Made by a program: the position numbers and the translations under genes. From Phocicoccus schoeneichii (GTDB lineage Bacteria; Bacillota; Bacilli; Staphylococcales; Salinicoccaceae): a stretch of DNA of 64,000 nucleotides. Shown in pieces: positions 10,588 through 64,000 of the stretch. The stretch spans positions 806,001 through 870,000 of the forward strand of contig NZ_BMDB01000001.1 of NCBI RefSeq assembly GCF_014635565.1. The letters are read 5' to 3'. Below the pieces are notes generated by a model. It was not told where the DNA came from. It did no database searches and worked only from the letters and a program-made list of their open reading frames with translations. The first letter of the stretch is position 1. Every line of letters begins with the position of its first letter.

Positions 10588-11385
10588 TTATTCTGCAGGA
10601 ATTACTGCTCCGTCATAGTTGTCTTCAATGAATTTTTTGATTTCTTCATCTTGTAAAACTTCTACAAGTGCATTCAGTTGTTCATTGTCTTTATCAGCAG
10701 AACGTGCGATAACGATATTCACGTAATCTGAGTCTGCACTTTCTAGTTCGATTGCTTCTTCCGCTGGACGAATACCTGCATCAATAGCAAAGTTTGCGTT
10801 AATGAAAAATACATCTGCTTCATTATTTTCGTAAGCTTTTGCCATGATTTCAGGTGCTGTTGTGTTATCAAAGTCAAAGTTATGTGGATTTTCTTCAATA
10901 TCTTCTACACGTGCAGTTTGTTCATTTGTACCTTCTTTAAGTGTAATTAAGTCAAGGTCTGTAAAGAATTTAAGGACACGGCCTTCGTCTGCAACGTTAT
11001 TTGATAAGAAAATTTTTGCGCCTTCTGGTAATTCTTCTAATGAATCGTAGTCATTTGAATATGCACCGATTGGTTCTAAATGAACGGCACCAAGGTTAAC
11101 AAAATCGAATCCTTCGTTTTCTACTGAATTATTGAAGAATGGGATATGTGCAAAAAATGTTGCATCTGCATCTTCAGATTCAAGTAATTTGTTTGGCGTA
11201 ACATAGTCGTTTACAACTTTAACGTTAAGATTAATACCACGCTCTTCAAGAAGTGGTTTTGCCTCTTCTAAGATTTCAGCGTGTGGAACTGGTGTAGCAA
11301 CAACTGTTAATTCTTCTTCTTTATTGCCACAAGCAGCAAGAACAAGAACTGAAACAAAAGTAAGTAAGAATAATATTCTCTTCAT
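10588..11385 (-). CDS. metQ: Methionine ABC transporter substrate-binding lipoprotein MetQ
   Basis: A 265-residue NlpA/MetQ lipoprotein. The signal peptide ends in the lipobox VLAAC with Cys19 to be lipidated, then the mature domain (EELTVVATPVPHAEIL, and NKLLESEDADATFFAHIPFF) typical of methionine-binding proteins. It is the third gene of metN-metP-metQ and is presumably anchored outside the membrane, delivering D/L-methionine to MetP. AGGAG precedes the ATG. Control is by the SAM-I riboswitch upstream of metN. Confidence 0.95.
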   Translation of the reverse strand: MKRILFLLTFVSVLVLAACGNKEEELTVVATPVPHAEILEEAKPLLEERGINLNVKVVNDYVTPNKLLESEDADATFFAHIPFFNNSVENEGFDFVNLGAVHLEPIGAYSNDYDSLEELPEGAKIFLSNNVADEGRVLKFFTDLDLITLKEGTNEQTARVEDIEENPHNFDFDNTTAPEIMAKAYENNEADVFFINANFAIDAGIRPAEEAIELESADSDYVNIVIARSADKDNEQLNALVEVLQDEEIKKFIEDNYDGAVIPAE

Positions 11386-11418: not shown

Positions 11419-12102
11419 TTATCGTTTGTCGATTGCTTTGGCAACTCTGTCGCCAATGATTTGAATCGCAAAAACGATAATTAATATCACAACAGTAGCA
11501 ACTAACGTTACGTCTGGTTGACTTCGAGTAAATCCGACCATATATGCGAGTGACCCGAGTCCACCTGCTCCGATAACCCCTGCGATCGCAGTAGATCCAA
11601 CGAGCATGATTGACGTCACTGTAATTCCAGACACGAGTGCTGGAAGTGATTCTGGGATGAGCACTTTGTAAACGAGTTCCCATGTGCTAGCTCCCATTGA
11701 CTCAGCGGCTTCAATGACCCCTTTGTCGATTTCTTTCAATGCAATTTCAGCAAGTCGAGCGTAGAACGGCGCACTCCCAATGATTAAGGCCGGCATCGCA
11801 CCCCATACTCCCATGATTGTACCCATCAACACTTTCGTGAACGGCATGAGTAAGATGATAAGAATGATGAACGGAATTGCACGGAATAAGTTCACGACGA
11901 ATGAAGTCGCGCCGTAAACAGGTGTTGAGACTGCCCCTCTTTTTCTTGAAGATAAAAACAAGATCAGCCCGAGAACAAGTCCAATAATGAAAGCGAAAAG
12001 CGTCGCGACACCTGTCATGATGAGTGTTTCATACGTTGCTTCAAGTACCGCATCAAGCTTTACGTGTTCGAAACTAAACATTTCTTTTAACGTCTCAATC
12101 AT
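11419..12102 (-). CDS. metP: Methionine ABC transporter permease MetP (MetI)
   Basis: A 227-residue permease with five or so membrane helices and the binding-protein-dependent transport motif EAAESMGAS...VLIPESLPA contacting MetN. Its start overlaps the metN stop by four bases (ATGA), so the two are translationally coupled. Confidence 0.95.
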   Translation of the reverse strand: MIETLKEMFSFEHVKLDAVLEATYETLIMTGVATLFAFIIGLVLGLILFLSSRKRGAVSTPVYGATSFVVNLFRAIPFIILIILLMPFTKVLMGTIMGVWGAMPALIIGSAPFYARLAEIALKEIDKGVIEAAESMGASTWELVYKVLIPESLPALVSGITVTSIMLVGSTAIAGVIGAGGLGSLAYMVGFTRSQPDVTLVATVVILIIVFAIQIIGDRVAKAIDKR

Positions 12103-13118
12103 TGTGCCACCTCCACATTCACACTTTCAGCATTAAGGTCATTCGTGATTTGTTCTAGCGTGTCGCTTGTAATGTCGACCGCAATGTATAAATGACCATA
12201 CGACTCGTCGTTTGTATTCTTGATGTTTCCAGATAAGATGTTCACATCAAGTCCGTATTTCTTCACGAGCATCGATACGATTGGTGCACGTGCTTTTGTT
12301 CCGACAAATCCGAGTTTTAGAATCGTCGCTGTAGGGAATGTTTCTTTGATGCTCTCGATTTGGATTTCTGTTTCTTCATCATCTAAATCGTCGCGAACAA
12401 AGCGTTTTGTTACGTCGTGTTCTGGTGCTTGGAACAATTTGATGACTGGCCCTACTTCTACGACGCGACCGTTTTCCATAACTGCAGCACGATCACAAAT
12501 CTTACGGATGACTTCCATTTCATGTGTGATTAACACAATGGTAAGTCCGAGTTCCTCACGAATTTTTAAAAGTAAGTTCAACACTTCTTCCGTTGTCTCT
12601 GGATCTAGTGCGCTTGTCGCTTCGTCACAGAGCAAAACCTCTGGTTCATTAGATAACGCACGTGCGATACCAACACGCTGCTTTTGTCCACCAGACAGTT
12701 CGCTCGGATAGTTTTTCTCGCGTCCTGTGAGTCCAACAAGGTCGATGAGTTCACGAGCACGACGTTCGCGTTCCTCTTTTTTTACACCTGCGATTTCGAG
12801 TGGTAGCATGATGTTTTCAATCACTGTACGTGACCAAAGTAAATTGAAGTGTTGGAAGATCATGGATACTTTCTGGCGCTTTTTGCGTAAGTCTTTTTTA
12901 TCGAGTGCTCCAATGGATGCATCTCCAACAATGATTTCACCTTCAGTTGGAAGTTCGAGTCCGTTTAATAAACGAATGAGCGTCGATTTACCTGCACCGG
13001 AATATCCGATGATCCCAAAAATTTCACCTTTATTGATTTCTAGCGAAACATCTTTGACCGCTTCAATTGTCTGTGATTTAGTTCTAAATATTTTACTGAC
13101 ATTTTTTATATCGATCAC
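12099..13118 (-). CDS. metN: Methionine ABC transporter ATPase MetN
   Basis: A 339-residue ATPase: Walker A GYSGAGKST near residue 38, signature LSGGQKQR, Walker B VLLCDEATSALD, then a C-terminal NIL domain (about 260-339) that senses methionine in this family. The start is GTG (13118). It is the first gene of the operon, about 30 bases behind the riboswitch-controlled terminator. Confidence 0.96.
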   Translation of the reverse strand: MIDIKNVSKIFRTKSQTIEAVKDVSLEINKGEIFGIIGYSGAGKSTLIRLLNGLELPTEGEIIVGDASIGALDKKDLRKKRQKVSMIFQHFNLLWSRTVIENIMLPLEIAGVKKEERERRARELIDLVGLTGREKNYPSELSGGQKQRVGIARALSNEPEVLLCDEATSALDPETTEEVLNLLLKIREELGLTIVLITHEMEVIRKICDRAAVMENGRVVEVGPVIKLFQAPEHDVTKRFVRDDLDDEETEIQIESIKETFPTATILKLGFVGTKARAPIVSMLVKKYGLDVNILSGNIKNTNDESYGHLYIAVDITSDTLEQITNDLNAESVNVEVAQ

Positions 13119-13188: not shown

Positions 13189-13287
13189 CTCTCATCTTCG
13201 AATTGAATTCAGTGATTTGGCACCTTGTCTATTCAGACGGTTGCCGTGGTTTCACAGGGCACTTCCCTCCACCACTCTTGATAAGAG
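13189..13287 (-). ncRNA. SAM-I (S-box) riboswitch aptamer for metNPQ
   Basis: The minus strand carries the S-box core: CTTATCAAGAGTGGTGGAGG at the 5' side, GCCCTGTGAAACC and GGCAACC in the middle, and GATGAGAG closing helix P1 against CTCTTATC (eight pairs, one G-U). The known class represses methionine genes by premature termination when S-adenosylmethionine is abundant. The position upstream of metN fits exactly. Confidence 0.95.
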
Positions 13288-13688: not shown

Positions 13689-14069
13689 TTAAGCGTTTGT
13701 CATTTCATCGTAAGCTGCAGCATCCATTAAAGTTTCAACTTCAGATTCATCTGATAGTTCAACTTTAATCATCCATGCACCTTCGTATGGAGATTCGTTT
13801 ACAAGTTCAGGGCTGTCTTCAAGCTCTTCGTTTACTTCTACTACAGTACCTGATACTGGAGCATATAATTCTGAAACTGTTTTAACAGACTCAACAGAAC
13901 CGAAAGAATCGCCTTTTGTGATTTCATCGCCTTCTTCAGGAAGTTCTACGAATACGATGTCGCCAAGTTCAGACTGAGCAAACTCAGTAATTCCAAGTGT
14001 AACCGTATTACCTTCAGATTTTACCCATTCATGATCTTCAGAATATTTTAAGTTCTCTGGTGATGCCAT
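13689..14069 (-). CDS. gcvH: Glycine cleavage system H protein
   Basis: A 126-residue lipoyl carrier: [20 protein letters not shown] near the N-terminus and the lipoylation lysine in [18 protein letters not shown]. It shuttles the aminomethyl group in glycine cleavage and, in Bacillus and staphylococci, also serves lipoyl relay. The ATG at 14069 follows AGGGGG by nine bases and gives the family's usual length; an in-frame start at 14120 would add an unrelated tail. The glycine cleavage P and T genes are not in the window. Confidence 0.95.
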
Positions 14070-14440
14070 TAATAAAAACCCCCTATAAGTTAATACCTTA
14101 ATTGTGTCATAAAAAACCATTTAAAACAATATATATAATAGTTAATCTAGTAAATTTCAAGAAAACACTTACTTTTTAAGATAAAAACACGGAAACCCAC
14201 GTGAGCACAGCTCAAGTTTAGGTGGAACAAGACTAGTTTTGTCTCTTTTTCTGAGATGACTTTGCACGAGTGCGCCTCTATATTGAACTGTCTTTTACTT
14301 CCCACAAAGTGTAGCAGAGATGCACGATAGTGCAAGACCAGTTGTGGTTTTATCACATCAGCCCGGTTCCGTGCGGTAGATGCTTGTTTTTATTGAGTCC
14401 AGTTGCTAGATTCTGACAATCGCATGAGTGTGCATCATTA
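14070..14440. other. Non-coding spacer upstream of gcvH and before repeat array A
   Basis: No convincing gene is seen. A palindrome-like ACAAGACTAGTTTTGT lies near 14228-14243. The right end (about 14398-14440) looks like one more degenerate unit of array A, with GACAATCGCATGAG and TGCATCATTAGG in the right register. A 69-residue open frame on the minus strand has no ribosome site or recognisable domain. Confidence 0.5.
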
Positions 14441-14862
14441 GGTGTCCGATTCATCTCTTCATTCGGACAACCACAGGTTTTTCGGCGCATGGTTGTCCGA
14501 TTCAACTCTCTATTTGGACAACCACAAGTTTTTCGGTGCATGGTTGTCCAATTCAGCACTCTATTTGGACAACCGCAGGTTTTTCGGTGCATGGTTGTCC
14601 GATTCAACTCTCTATTTGGACAACCGCAGGAATTTCGGTGCATGGTTGTCCAATTCAACTCTCTATTTGGACAACCACAGGTTTTTCTGCGCATGGTTGT
14701 CCAATACAACTCTCTATTTGGACAACCACAGGTTTTTCAGCGCACAGTTGTCCAATTCAACTCTCTATTCAGACAACCGCGTGTGTTTTTAAGTCTTGTT
14801 GTCAAAAATAACTTGCAATACTGGCAACCATGAGAGTTTTATAGCCTGGTTGTCAGTATTTC
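14441..14862. repeat. Tandem array A, 51-bp units, with alternating inverted arms
   Basis: Seven clear units start at 14441, 14491, 14542, 14593, 14644, 14695 and 14746, followed by degenerate copies to about 14862. Each unit has GGTTGTCC, a 17-base CT-rich spacer, GGACAACC, then a second spacer containing GGTTTTTC and GCAT. The two arms are complementary and alternate about every 25 bases, so hairpins can form within or between units. The last copies form a 14-base hairpin (14817-14830 with 14847-14860). All three plus-strand frames stay open across much of the array because 51 is a multiple of three, which argues against a specific coding frame. It lies between two minus-strand genes. Confidence 0.9.
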
Positions 14863-14916
14863 TTCATTAAATCAAGTTTTTATCTTTTAGTGAATAAACG
14901 CGGCACAGACTTCACC

Positions 14917-15273
14917 CTACAACTGTAATTTTTCTTTATACTCGTCCTCTTTGAATCCTAGAAACACACCTGCTTCGTAGTCGACCATCGGACGCTTGAT
15001 GAGCATACCGTCTTTTGATAATAGATCGAGTTTTTCGTCATACGTTAAGTCACCAAGTGCTTCTTTTAAATTCAGCTCTTTGAACGCATTTCCACGTGAG
15101 TTGAAAAACTCGTCGACATTGCGTCCACTCTGTTTTACTAGACCATCGAGCACTTCCACTGATGGTGGTGTTGTCACCATGTCCACCGCTTCAAATTCTA
15201 CTCCCGCTTCTTCTAAAAATTTCTTTGTTTTTCTGCATGTCGTGCATTTTGGATATTCATATACAGTAATCAT
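14917..15273 (-). CDS. ArsC/Spx-family protein with CTTC motif
   Basis: A 118-residue thioredoxin-fold protein: YPKCTTCRKTKKFLEE at the N-terminus and IKRPMVDYEAGVFLGFKEDEY at the C-terminus, as in the ArsC/YffB/Spx superfamily. The CxxC resembles Spx redox switches, but the Spx-specific G52 region cannot be judged. A cytosolic reductase or a regulator are both possible. Its start overlaps the aroD stop by four bases, so the two are co-expressed; the same pairing with a shikimate gene is found near gcvH in staphylococci. Confidence 0.8.
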   Translation of the reverse strand: MITVYEYPKCTTCRKTKKFLEEAGVEFEAVDMVTTPPSVEVLDGLVKQSGRNVDEFFNSRGNAFKELNLKEALGDLTYDEKLDLLSKDGMLIKRPMVDYEAGVFLGFKEDEYKEKLQL

Positions 15274-21779: not shown

Positions 21780-21980
21780 GATTTGTTTTTAAACTAGGTG
21801 ACTTGGCAGCTCTACTTTTGAAATAAAACTGATTTGTTTCTAAACTAGATGACTTAGACGCTCTACTTTTGAAATAAAACTGTTTTGTTTCTAAACTAGA
21901 AGACTTAGACGCTCTACTTTTGAAATAAAAACGATTTGTTTCTAAACTAGAGATGAAAACTGCCTAATTTTAAAATAAAA
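21780..21980. repeat. Tandem array B, four 51-bp units
   Basis: Units begin at 21780, 21831, 21882 and 21933. Shared words are TTTGTTTCTAAACTAGA, GACTTAGACGCTCTAC and TTTTGAAATAAAA; the fourth copy decays after its first 18 bases. TCTAA and TTAGA form small inverted arms in the second and third units. The array fills the space between the terminators of two convergent genes. Its sequence is unrelated to arrays A and C, but the period is identical. No coding potential is seen. Confidence 0.88.
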
Positions 21981-22018
21981 TACCCCTCAAGCTGTTTAAT
22001 ACAGCCTTGAGGGGTACC
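21979..22018 (-). terminator. Terminator of the VOC-family gene
   Basis: TACCCCTCAAG and CTTGAGGGGTA are perfect arms with a further CTGT/ACAG pair inside. The minus-strand side continues into a T-rich run. The VOC stop codon is 56 bases away. Confidence 0.85.
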
Positions 22019-55173: not shown

Positions 55174-55632
55174 TTTATCTTCGATATAGCACACAATCAT
55201 GCTTCCTATATAGAAGATTATCCATTTATCTTTGAGATAGCACACAATCATGCTTCCTATATAGAAGATTATCCATTTATCTTTGAGATAGCACACAATC
55301 ACGCTTCCTATATAGAAGATTATCCCTTTATCTTTGAGATAGGACACAATCATGCTTCCTATATAGAAGATTCTCCCTTTATCTTTGAGATAGCACACAA
55401 TCATGCTTCCTATATAGAAGATTATCCATTTATCTTCGAGATAGAACACAATCTTGCTTCCTATATAGAAGATTATCCATTTATCTTTGAGATAGCACAC
55501 AATCTTGCTTCCTATATAGAAGATTATTCCTTTATCTTTGAGATAGCACACAATCTTGCTTCCTATATAGAAGATTATCCATTTATCTTTGAGATAGGTC
55601 ACAAACTCAGGACCTATATAGAAGATAAACAC
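55174..55632. repeat. Tandem array C, nine 51-bp units
   Basis: Nine head-to-tail copies of 51 bp; eight are close to identical and the ninth (from 55582) diverges in the middle. Shared words are TTTATCTTTGAGATAG, CACACAAT and GCTTCCTATATAGAAGAT. CTTC(C)TATATAGAAG is a bulged palindrome, and AAGAT/ATCTT form further inverted arms. A minus-strand frame (GTG 55632 to 55126, 168 codons) runs through all copies with a 17-residue period (hydrophobic FYIGSMIVCYL plus KDK), but differences between copies mostly change residues, so coding is doubtful. The array lies between hprK and the DUF4097 gene. Confidence 0.92.
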
Positions 55633-63359: not shown

Positions 63360-64000
63360 TTAATGAATGAAGTTGTGGTTTGCAACTTTGTCTGCTGAGA
63401 TTGTTCTCATTGTTTTAGTGCCTGCTGTTGGCCAGCCCATTTCTGATACTGTAATTGATCCGTCTGGGTTGATTGATTCAACAACTGCAACGTGTCCAGA
63501 GCTGTATGCACCGTTCGTGCCAGCATAGCTATGAACAATCGCACCAACTGAAGGTGTGTTGTTTACGTTGTAACCATTCGCACGCGCATTGTCTGCCCAG
63601 TTATTTCCGTTACCCCACATGTTACTTACGCCTTTACCTAATTCTTTACGACGTTCGAATGCATACCATGTGCAGTCTCCGTAGTAGTAATAGTTTACAC
63701 CGTAAGAGGATTGTGTTTTAGATGAAGTGCTTGGAGCTGCTGCTTGTTCTGCCGCTTTTCTTTCAGCCGCAATCTTCGCTTGACGTTGTTGTTCTTTTTG
63801 AGCTGCGATTCTATTTTGTTCAGCTTTGATTGCCGCTAGACGATCTGCTTCGGCTTTCTCAGCTGCTGCTTGTTCTCTAGCAATTCTATCTTGTTCTGCT
63901 TTTTCAGCTGCTGCTCTATCTGCTTCAGCTTTTTGTGCTGCTTGTTCTCTAGCAATTCGATCTGCTTCAGCTTTTTGTGCAGCTGCTTGTTCAGCCGCTA
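63360..64000 (-). CDS. Secreted CHAP-domain amidase, 5' end outside the window
   Basis: The C-terminal 213 codons are visible; the frame is open to the window edge. An Ala/Glu/Gln/Lys-rich region (beyond about 63730) has repeated words such as AEADRIAREQAA, predicted to form a long coiled coil. A CHAP domain follows: catalytic Cys in YYYYGDCTWYAFERR, His in SGHVAVVESINPDG and the final MGWPTAGTKTMRT. CHAP enzymes cut peptidoglycan peptides during wall growth or division, as in SsaA/Sle1-type proteins. The start and any signal peptide are not visible. Confidence 0.88.
   Translation of the reverse strand, partial: AAEQAAAQKAEADRIAREQAAQKAEADRAAAEKAEQDRIAREQAAAEKAEADRLAAIKAEQNRIAAQKEQQRQAKIAAERKAAEQAAAPSTSSKTQSSYGVNYYYYGDCTWYAFERRKELGKGVSNMWGNGNNWADNARANGYNVNNTPSVGAIVHSYAGTNGAYSSGHVAVVESINPDGSITVSEMGWPTAGTKTMRTISADKVANHNFIH

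Follow-up and report, generated by a model that had tools for sequence, protein, structure and literature searches.

Helically phased intergenic arrays with complementary arms in Phocicoccus schoeneichii and other Salinicoccaceae

The locus and layout of array A

The window analysed, a stretch of 64,000 nucleotides of the Phocicoccus schoeneichii genome (assembly GCF_014635565.1, contig NZ_BMDB01000001.1, positions 806,001 to 870,000), contains a tandem array, array A, in the gap between a gene of the ArsC/Spx family, whose 3' end faces the array, and gcvH, which encodes the glycine cleavage H protein and lies on the opposite side (Table 1). Both genes are on the minus strand and the gap is co-directional. 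A consensus scan detected no terminator from arsC up to the array and one terminator-like hairpin on its far side; array A may therefore belong to the 3' untranslated region of arsC, and this copy may be transcribed. Rfam matches in the window are limited to tmRNA, tRNA and a SAM riboswitch (RF00162, 89 bits; 13189-13287, minus strand), with none to array A. The riboswitch precedes a methionine-type ABC transporter operon (12099-13118, 11419-12102 and 10588-11385).

Table 1. Positions of array A, its parts, its neighbours and the two other arrays of the window
Feature	Position	Strand	Basis or remark
gcvH, glycine cleavage H protein	13689..14069	-	Pfam GCV_H, 1e-50
Terminator-like hairpin with T tail, between array A and gcvH	14187..14202	-	consensus scan only
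Array A, 51-bp units with alternating complementary arms and decayed end copies	14411..14860	.	TRF, repeat finder, arm map
Left-end decayed copy of array A, TGACAATC ... AGGTGTCC	14411..14450	.	arm map
Homogeneous core of array A, ten consecutive perfect arms GGTTGTCC / GGACAACC	14491..14727	.	arm map
Right-end hairpin of array A, AATACTGGCAACCA...TGGTTGTCAGTATT	14817..14860	.	14 pairs, one G-U
Arm starts of array A, first half	14414<, 14440>, 14465<, 14491>, 14516<, 14542>, 14567<, 14593>, 14618<		
Arm starts of array A, second half	14644>, 14669<, 14695>, 14720<, 14746>, 14771<, 14797>, 14822<, 14848>		
ArsC/Spx-family gene, 3' end facing array A	14917..15273	-	Pfam ArsC, 1.9e-18
Array B, same class, 51-bp period, convergent gap	21780..21983	.	
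Array C, same class, 51-bp period	55174..55632	.	last copy has best-paired arms (by eye)

TRF called array A at 14443-14778 (51-bp period, 6.6 copies, 89% matches, no indels), and decayed copies extend it past this call to about 14860. A search for the arms GGTTGTCC (>) and GGACAACC (<), with at most two mismatches, placed 18 arms from 14414 to 14855, in an unbroken alternation of orientation and with arm-to-arm steps that are all 25 or 26 bp. This confirms the alternating complementary arms about 25 bp apart that a sequence-only reading had described between 14441 and 14862; the array stands at that place, with borders slightly wider on the left (about 14411-14860). The evenness of the arms is partly trivial, since an inverted pair within any tandem repeat puts the dyads half a period apart; for this reason the similar size of the two loops was not counted as evidence. 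Eleven of the 18 arms are perfect: ten form the core, and the eleventh, at 14465, lies outside it. The left-end copy has only 20/51 identity with the consensus and is still in register, and at the right end 14817-14830 pairs with 14847-14860, which is the 14-base hairpin of decayed copies that had been noticed before. Shuffling the consensus unit 3000 times gave a perfect 9-bp inverted pair in 8 cases, the array folds far better than shuffled sequences on both strands (z -7.9 on plus and z -7.3 on minus), and the fifth harmonic is the largest component of its GC spectrum (0.112).

A CRISPR array was rejected because the spacers repeat with the unit (the 89% of the TRF call applies over the whole 51 bp). 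Reading frames are open across array A on both strands; a protein-coding repeat was rejected because the 52-bp and 41-bp sister arrays break the frame and the arrays lie between genes. Type III toxin-antitoxin RNA repeats were set aside, there being no toxin gene at array A and too many arrays. A separate motif, AGATAAAAACA(C) / (G)TGTTTTTATCT, occurs in the window at 14177-14190 and 14872-14884 and is strongly over-represented in the host stretches L038-L057, in which GATAAAAACA was seen 72 times against 5.9 expected under an order-4 Markov model. It turns up within genes as well as between them, on either strand, and frequently forms the tail of a terminator. In the sister species, Phocicoccus pinnipedialis, it is weaker but still present (16 occurrences, 2.8 expected). 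The motif resembles a signal of the uptake type or one linked to terminators. Ala/Gln-rich coding repeats with periods of 30-75 bp (63808-63987, extending into stretch L043) are likely a surface-protein repeat.

A paralogue of array A with related arms is carried on another contig, C3. The two arrays end in the same diverged hairpin, where their homology stops, and this right-end hairpin is the only end structure that they share. A family-wide DNA search with array A matched array A itself and this one paralogue only, and no match to the exact arm pattern turned up among 85,000 genomes scanned, both of which are expected if the sequence is not conserved. In Phocicoccus pinnipedialis, the nearest named relative, the orthologous gap measures about 160 bp and has no array, so the copy in P. 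schoeneichii is dispensable; at this diverged empty site no border or target duplication was found.

Unit length, GC phasing and placement across the family

Intergenic arrays of this kind number in the dozens across Salinicoccaceae, and two besides array A lie in the window (Table 1). In 464 kb of sampled host genome there are fifteen arrays, every one with a period of 51 or 52, which belong to several unrelated sequence families; arm sequences are unrelated between some of them, and the unit family of array C (TTATCTTTGAGATAG...CTATATAGAAGATAA) is found at four loci of the sampled stretches. The family sample comprised about 1.27 Mb, in stretches, from 19 genomes of six genera. Its 44 non-coding tandem repeats have periods of 41 bp (20), 50-52 bp (23) or 47 bp (one), so that 43 fall at about four or five helical turns; four of the 51-bp arrays have a long open frame and were scored as non-coding by their position in gaps, and two of these four are in one orthologous gap, next to enolase. 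Coding tandem repeats in the same sample have periods of 24, 27, 30, 33, 36, 45, 72 and 234, and about 0.8 Mb of other Staphylococcales and Bacilli gave three non-coding arrays only, of 31, 60 and 122 bp. The counts by period are non-independent, as relatives inherit unit length, and removal of relatives left 28 mutually unrelated units; unit length may just have been inherited from two ancestral arrays. Arrays of 52 bp with diverged sequence also occupy an apparently orthologous gap in the host (L039, 2060-2824) and in the sister species (L059, 6956-7104), an orthology judged from flanking gene sizes only.

In 14 unrelated units of 50-52 bp the strongest Fourier component of GC is the fifth harmonic, at 10.2-10.4 bp, with a value of 0.109 against 0.043 +- 0.011 in dinucleotide shuffles (z 6.1). 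The 41-bp units show the fourth harmonic more weakly (z 2.7), and random genomic 51-mers, used as a control, have a flat GC spectrum. Both neighbouring genes were called for 41 of the sampled arrays. Of these, 25 occupy convergent gaps, whereas 112 of the 749 gaps without such an array are convergent (odds ratio 8.9, p 1e-10).

Arm pairing within arrays and between species

The longest perfect arm of the 28 unrelated units has a mean of 6.1 bp, against 4.68 +- 0.17 bp after shuffling (z 8.3). Within 14 arrays with clear arms, variation amounts to 3.2% in the arms and 9.6% in the remainder (p 0.001), the arms having been picked on the consensus, which is a mild bias. The arms are less variable in 13 of the 14, and in array A the values are 3.7% and 9.1%, in agreement with the earlier view that arms are the most conserved part and spacers vary. 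Wobbles within arrays are 29 G-U and 24 A-C, which indicates no overall strand preference, and compensatory pairs inside single arrays number 3 against 1.2 +- 0.9 expected.

The strong covariation signal comes from the array ends and from comparison between species, not from the interiors of single arrays. When the right-end hairpins of array A and the C3 paralogue are compared with the inner copies, three pairs are changed on both sides, and 0 of 500 shuffles reach the observed covariation score or number of both-side-changed cells. The wobbles in the arm cores of these two arrays are G-U on the plus strand.

Eight species of genus g3 share an orthologous gap flanked by enolase and a convergent NERD-domain gene, both named from their translated sequences, and a 51-bp array is present in all eight sampled. 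The arms, among them ATGAGACAG/CTGTCTCAT, ATGAGCAAG/CTTGCTCAT, GGTGATAAGT/ACTTATCACC and ATAGAC/GTCTAT, are complementary inside each array, and closely similar arms are common to some of the species. Gap-free alignment is possible for the units of G009, G006 and G005, whose spacers are still similar; three arm pairs are changed on both sides (GC to UA, UA to CG and GC to UA), and no shuffle among 500 reaches the covariation score or the count of both-side-changed cells. A second alignment, of four other species, has two such pairs (1/500 shuffles on the same measures). G006 shows by eye a GGTGATAAGT...ACTTATCACC copy at the enolase-side edge, beside a core of the new type, which reads as an older unit surviving at the array edge. 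These arrays sit, also by eye, past an apparent enolase terminator hairpin. In the G005 assembly an N lies inside the array (L169, 8525 onward), and draft genomes may therefore understate how long the arrays are. The pepF neighbourhood of six species of genus g6 holds exact 41-bp arrays whose units differ.

The sequence-only reading had suggested that the pairing was kept rather than the sequence and had proposed covariation of the arms as the check; that check is positive for array A with its paralogue, and more strongly so across species at the enolase locus. As judged from these sequences, evolution has conserved the length of the unit and the ability of its arms to pair, not the letters.

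Interpretation and comparison with known systems

We interpret array A as a member of a family-wide class of intergenic DNA-shape elements, perhaps wrapped by gyrase and used at gene ends as BIME-2 arrays are, a reading to which we assign a probability of roughly 0.4. The retention of repeat length and arm pairing despite free change of sequence points to a role for DNA shape, and a DNA-level reading fits best, in view of the near-integer-turn period across the family and the helical-period GC oscillation. Each unit spans about five (or four) helical turns and has two complementary arms, and its GC rises and falls once per turn, most clearly in the five-turn class. A whole array is in this way smoothly phased with the helix, and its two-fold symmetry axes recur at intervals of 2.5 (or 2) turns. 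The near-integer helical period, the GC phasing and the two-fold axes together favour a symmetric wrapping protein. Such an element would act as DNA at the ends of genes, the places where supercoils meet, and its user would be a DNA-wrapping enzyme, most probably gyrase, with the job that BIME-2 arrays have in E. coli. A gyrase-wrapping role is favoured by the GC-pattern preference of E. coli gyrase, whose sites share a symmetric motif of 130 bp in which GC oscillates with a period of 10.75 bp (PMC6379681), by the BIME-2 arrays, which are gyrase sites in that species (PMC6379681), and by a 2025 preprint that ties wrapping to phased GC content (PMC12393610). We infer both selection as the cause and gyrase, or another protein, as the user. 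Gyrase alone does not account for the exact complementarity of the arms, to which hairpin or cruciform extrusion, or template switching from arm to arm (PMC8794818), must contribute. More tentatively, the arrays could be a family-wide, geometry-defined chromosomal element of integer helical turns and self-complementary arms that may change in sequence, providing supercoil or wrapping stations in transcription gaps as a bacterial counterpart of phased satellites.

The former suggestion of evenly spaced inverted binding sites agrees with the DNA-level reading and must be modified in one respect: a sequence-specific binding protein is unlikely, as arms differ among arrays of one genome. Several observations count against the shape element or its use by gyrase. 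The GC period is 10.75 bp in E. coli and 10.2-10.4 bp in the arrays, the 41-bp class is phased weakly, and perfect complementarity exceeds what indirect readout by gyrase would need. The gap of array A is co-directional and the sister species has no array there, the period draws are not independent if inherited from two ancestral arrays, and convergent gaps also best tolerate parasitic repeats (PMC3049150).

In the main rival, a serious one, the arrays are a neutral satellite: unequal exchange would add and remove units, template switching during replication would copy one arm of a hairpin-prone unit onto the other and so change both together without selection, convergent gaps would simply tolerate the array and its unit length would be inherited. 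We regard this as a real possibility, short of even odds, since perfect stems reportedly arise and persist through template switching (PMC8794818), a homogeneous core with decayed ends is satellite-like, the orthologous place in the sister species is empty, and BOX, RUP and SPRITE, also enriched in convergent gaps, are read as parasites (PMC3049150). Neutrality does not predict the helical-period GC oscillation in unrelated units, nor a unit that stays at 51 or 41 bp despite strong turnover in eight and six species, respectively.

Action at the RNA level, as a hairpin chain in read-through or 3' UTR transcripts that would protect 3' ends, act in attenuation or form a bistable switch, the last being the proposal of the sequence-only reading, is improbable. 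It is consistent with the fold scores on the two strands, the possible place of array A in the arsC 3' UTR and the plus-strand G-U wobbles of array A and its paralogue; however, both neighbours of array A are on the minus strand, which puts these wobbles on the untranscribed side. The bistable chain is not borne out, as the strands fold equally well, wobbles are balanced overall and the enolase-locus arrays lie beyond an apparent terminator; the 10.3-bp phasing would have no reason at the RNA level. We likewise consider improbable a non-autonomous mobile repeat, BOX-like or MITE-like, with the array ends as borders. One unit family does recur at several loci of one genome, and the end hairpin common to array A and C3, where homology stops, would suit such borders, but the host genome has no Y1/RAYT-type transposase, arrays are long-lived at orthologous loci, and the diverged empty site gave no border or target duplication.

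Bacterial intergenic repeats are usually classed by sequence, whereas unit length and pairing define the class here; homology searches would miss it, as sequence identity fails as a definition across species. The arrays are a ready candidate set of gyrase or wrapping sites in Gram-positive cocci, and the enolase gap, with its many arrays and species, is a natural experiment that sets selection on DNA shape against template-switch mutation. In open-licence literature no published description of such a class was found; the sole match was a Salinicoccaceae genome note that lists '58 tandem repeats' without analysis (PMC4667468).

The REP/BIME-2 repeats of enterobacteria resemble the arrays as intergenic, cruciform-prone tandems of alternating inverted palindromic units, mostly placed in convergent or co-directional gaps, and BIME-2 is bound by gyrase (PMC6379681, PMC3733652). 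REPs have, however, one sequence per genome with GTAG/CGTC tags, while unrelated sequences coexist in Salinicoccaceae, with a period fixed near four or five helical turns, unlike that of REP/BIME. The arms of array A (GGTTGTCC/GGACAACC) do not show a conserved palindrome with a GTAG or CGTC tag, and the Y1_Tnp (PF01797) RAYT-type transposase is absent from the host genome, on which ground REP/RAYT membership was rejected, and present in 3 of 33 family genomes. BOX of Streptococcus pneumoniae is likewise a composite intergenic repeat enriched in convergent gaps, with a variable tandem number of boxB and hairpin ends, but it has a single consensus and defined boxA/boxC ends, and turnover of arms with kept pairing is not described for it (PMC3049150). 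Bacterial minisatellites such as the VNTR loci of S. aureus are also intergenic, of about 50 bp and variable in copy number. Known VNTR sets have assorted unit lengths, whereas the arrays sampled in Salinicoccaceae all measure 41 or 50-52 bp, apart from one of 47 bp, and have paired arms. The Mu strong gyrase site and the E. coli gyrase sites share GC phased per turn over more than 100 bp and two-fold symmetry (PMC6379681, PMC12393610), but are single sites with a 10.75-bp period and do not require complementary arms. Array A has the 51-bp period, the complementary, conserved and covarying arms and the fifth-harmonic GC of the proposed class; its layout and placement are BIME-2- or BOX-like, yet it is not a member of REP/BIME.
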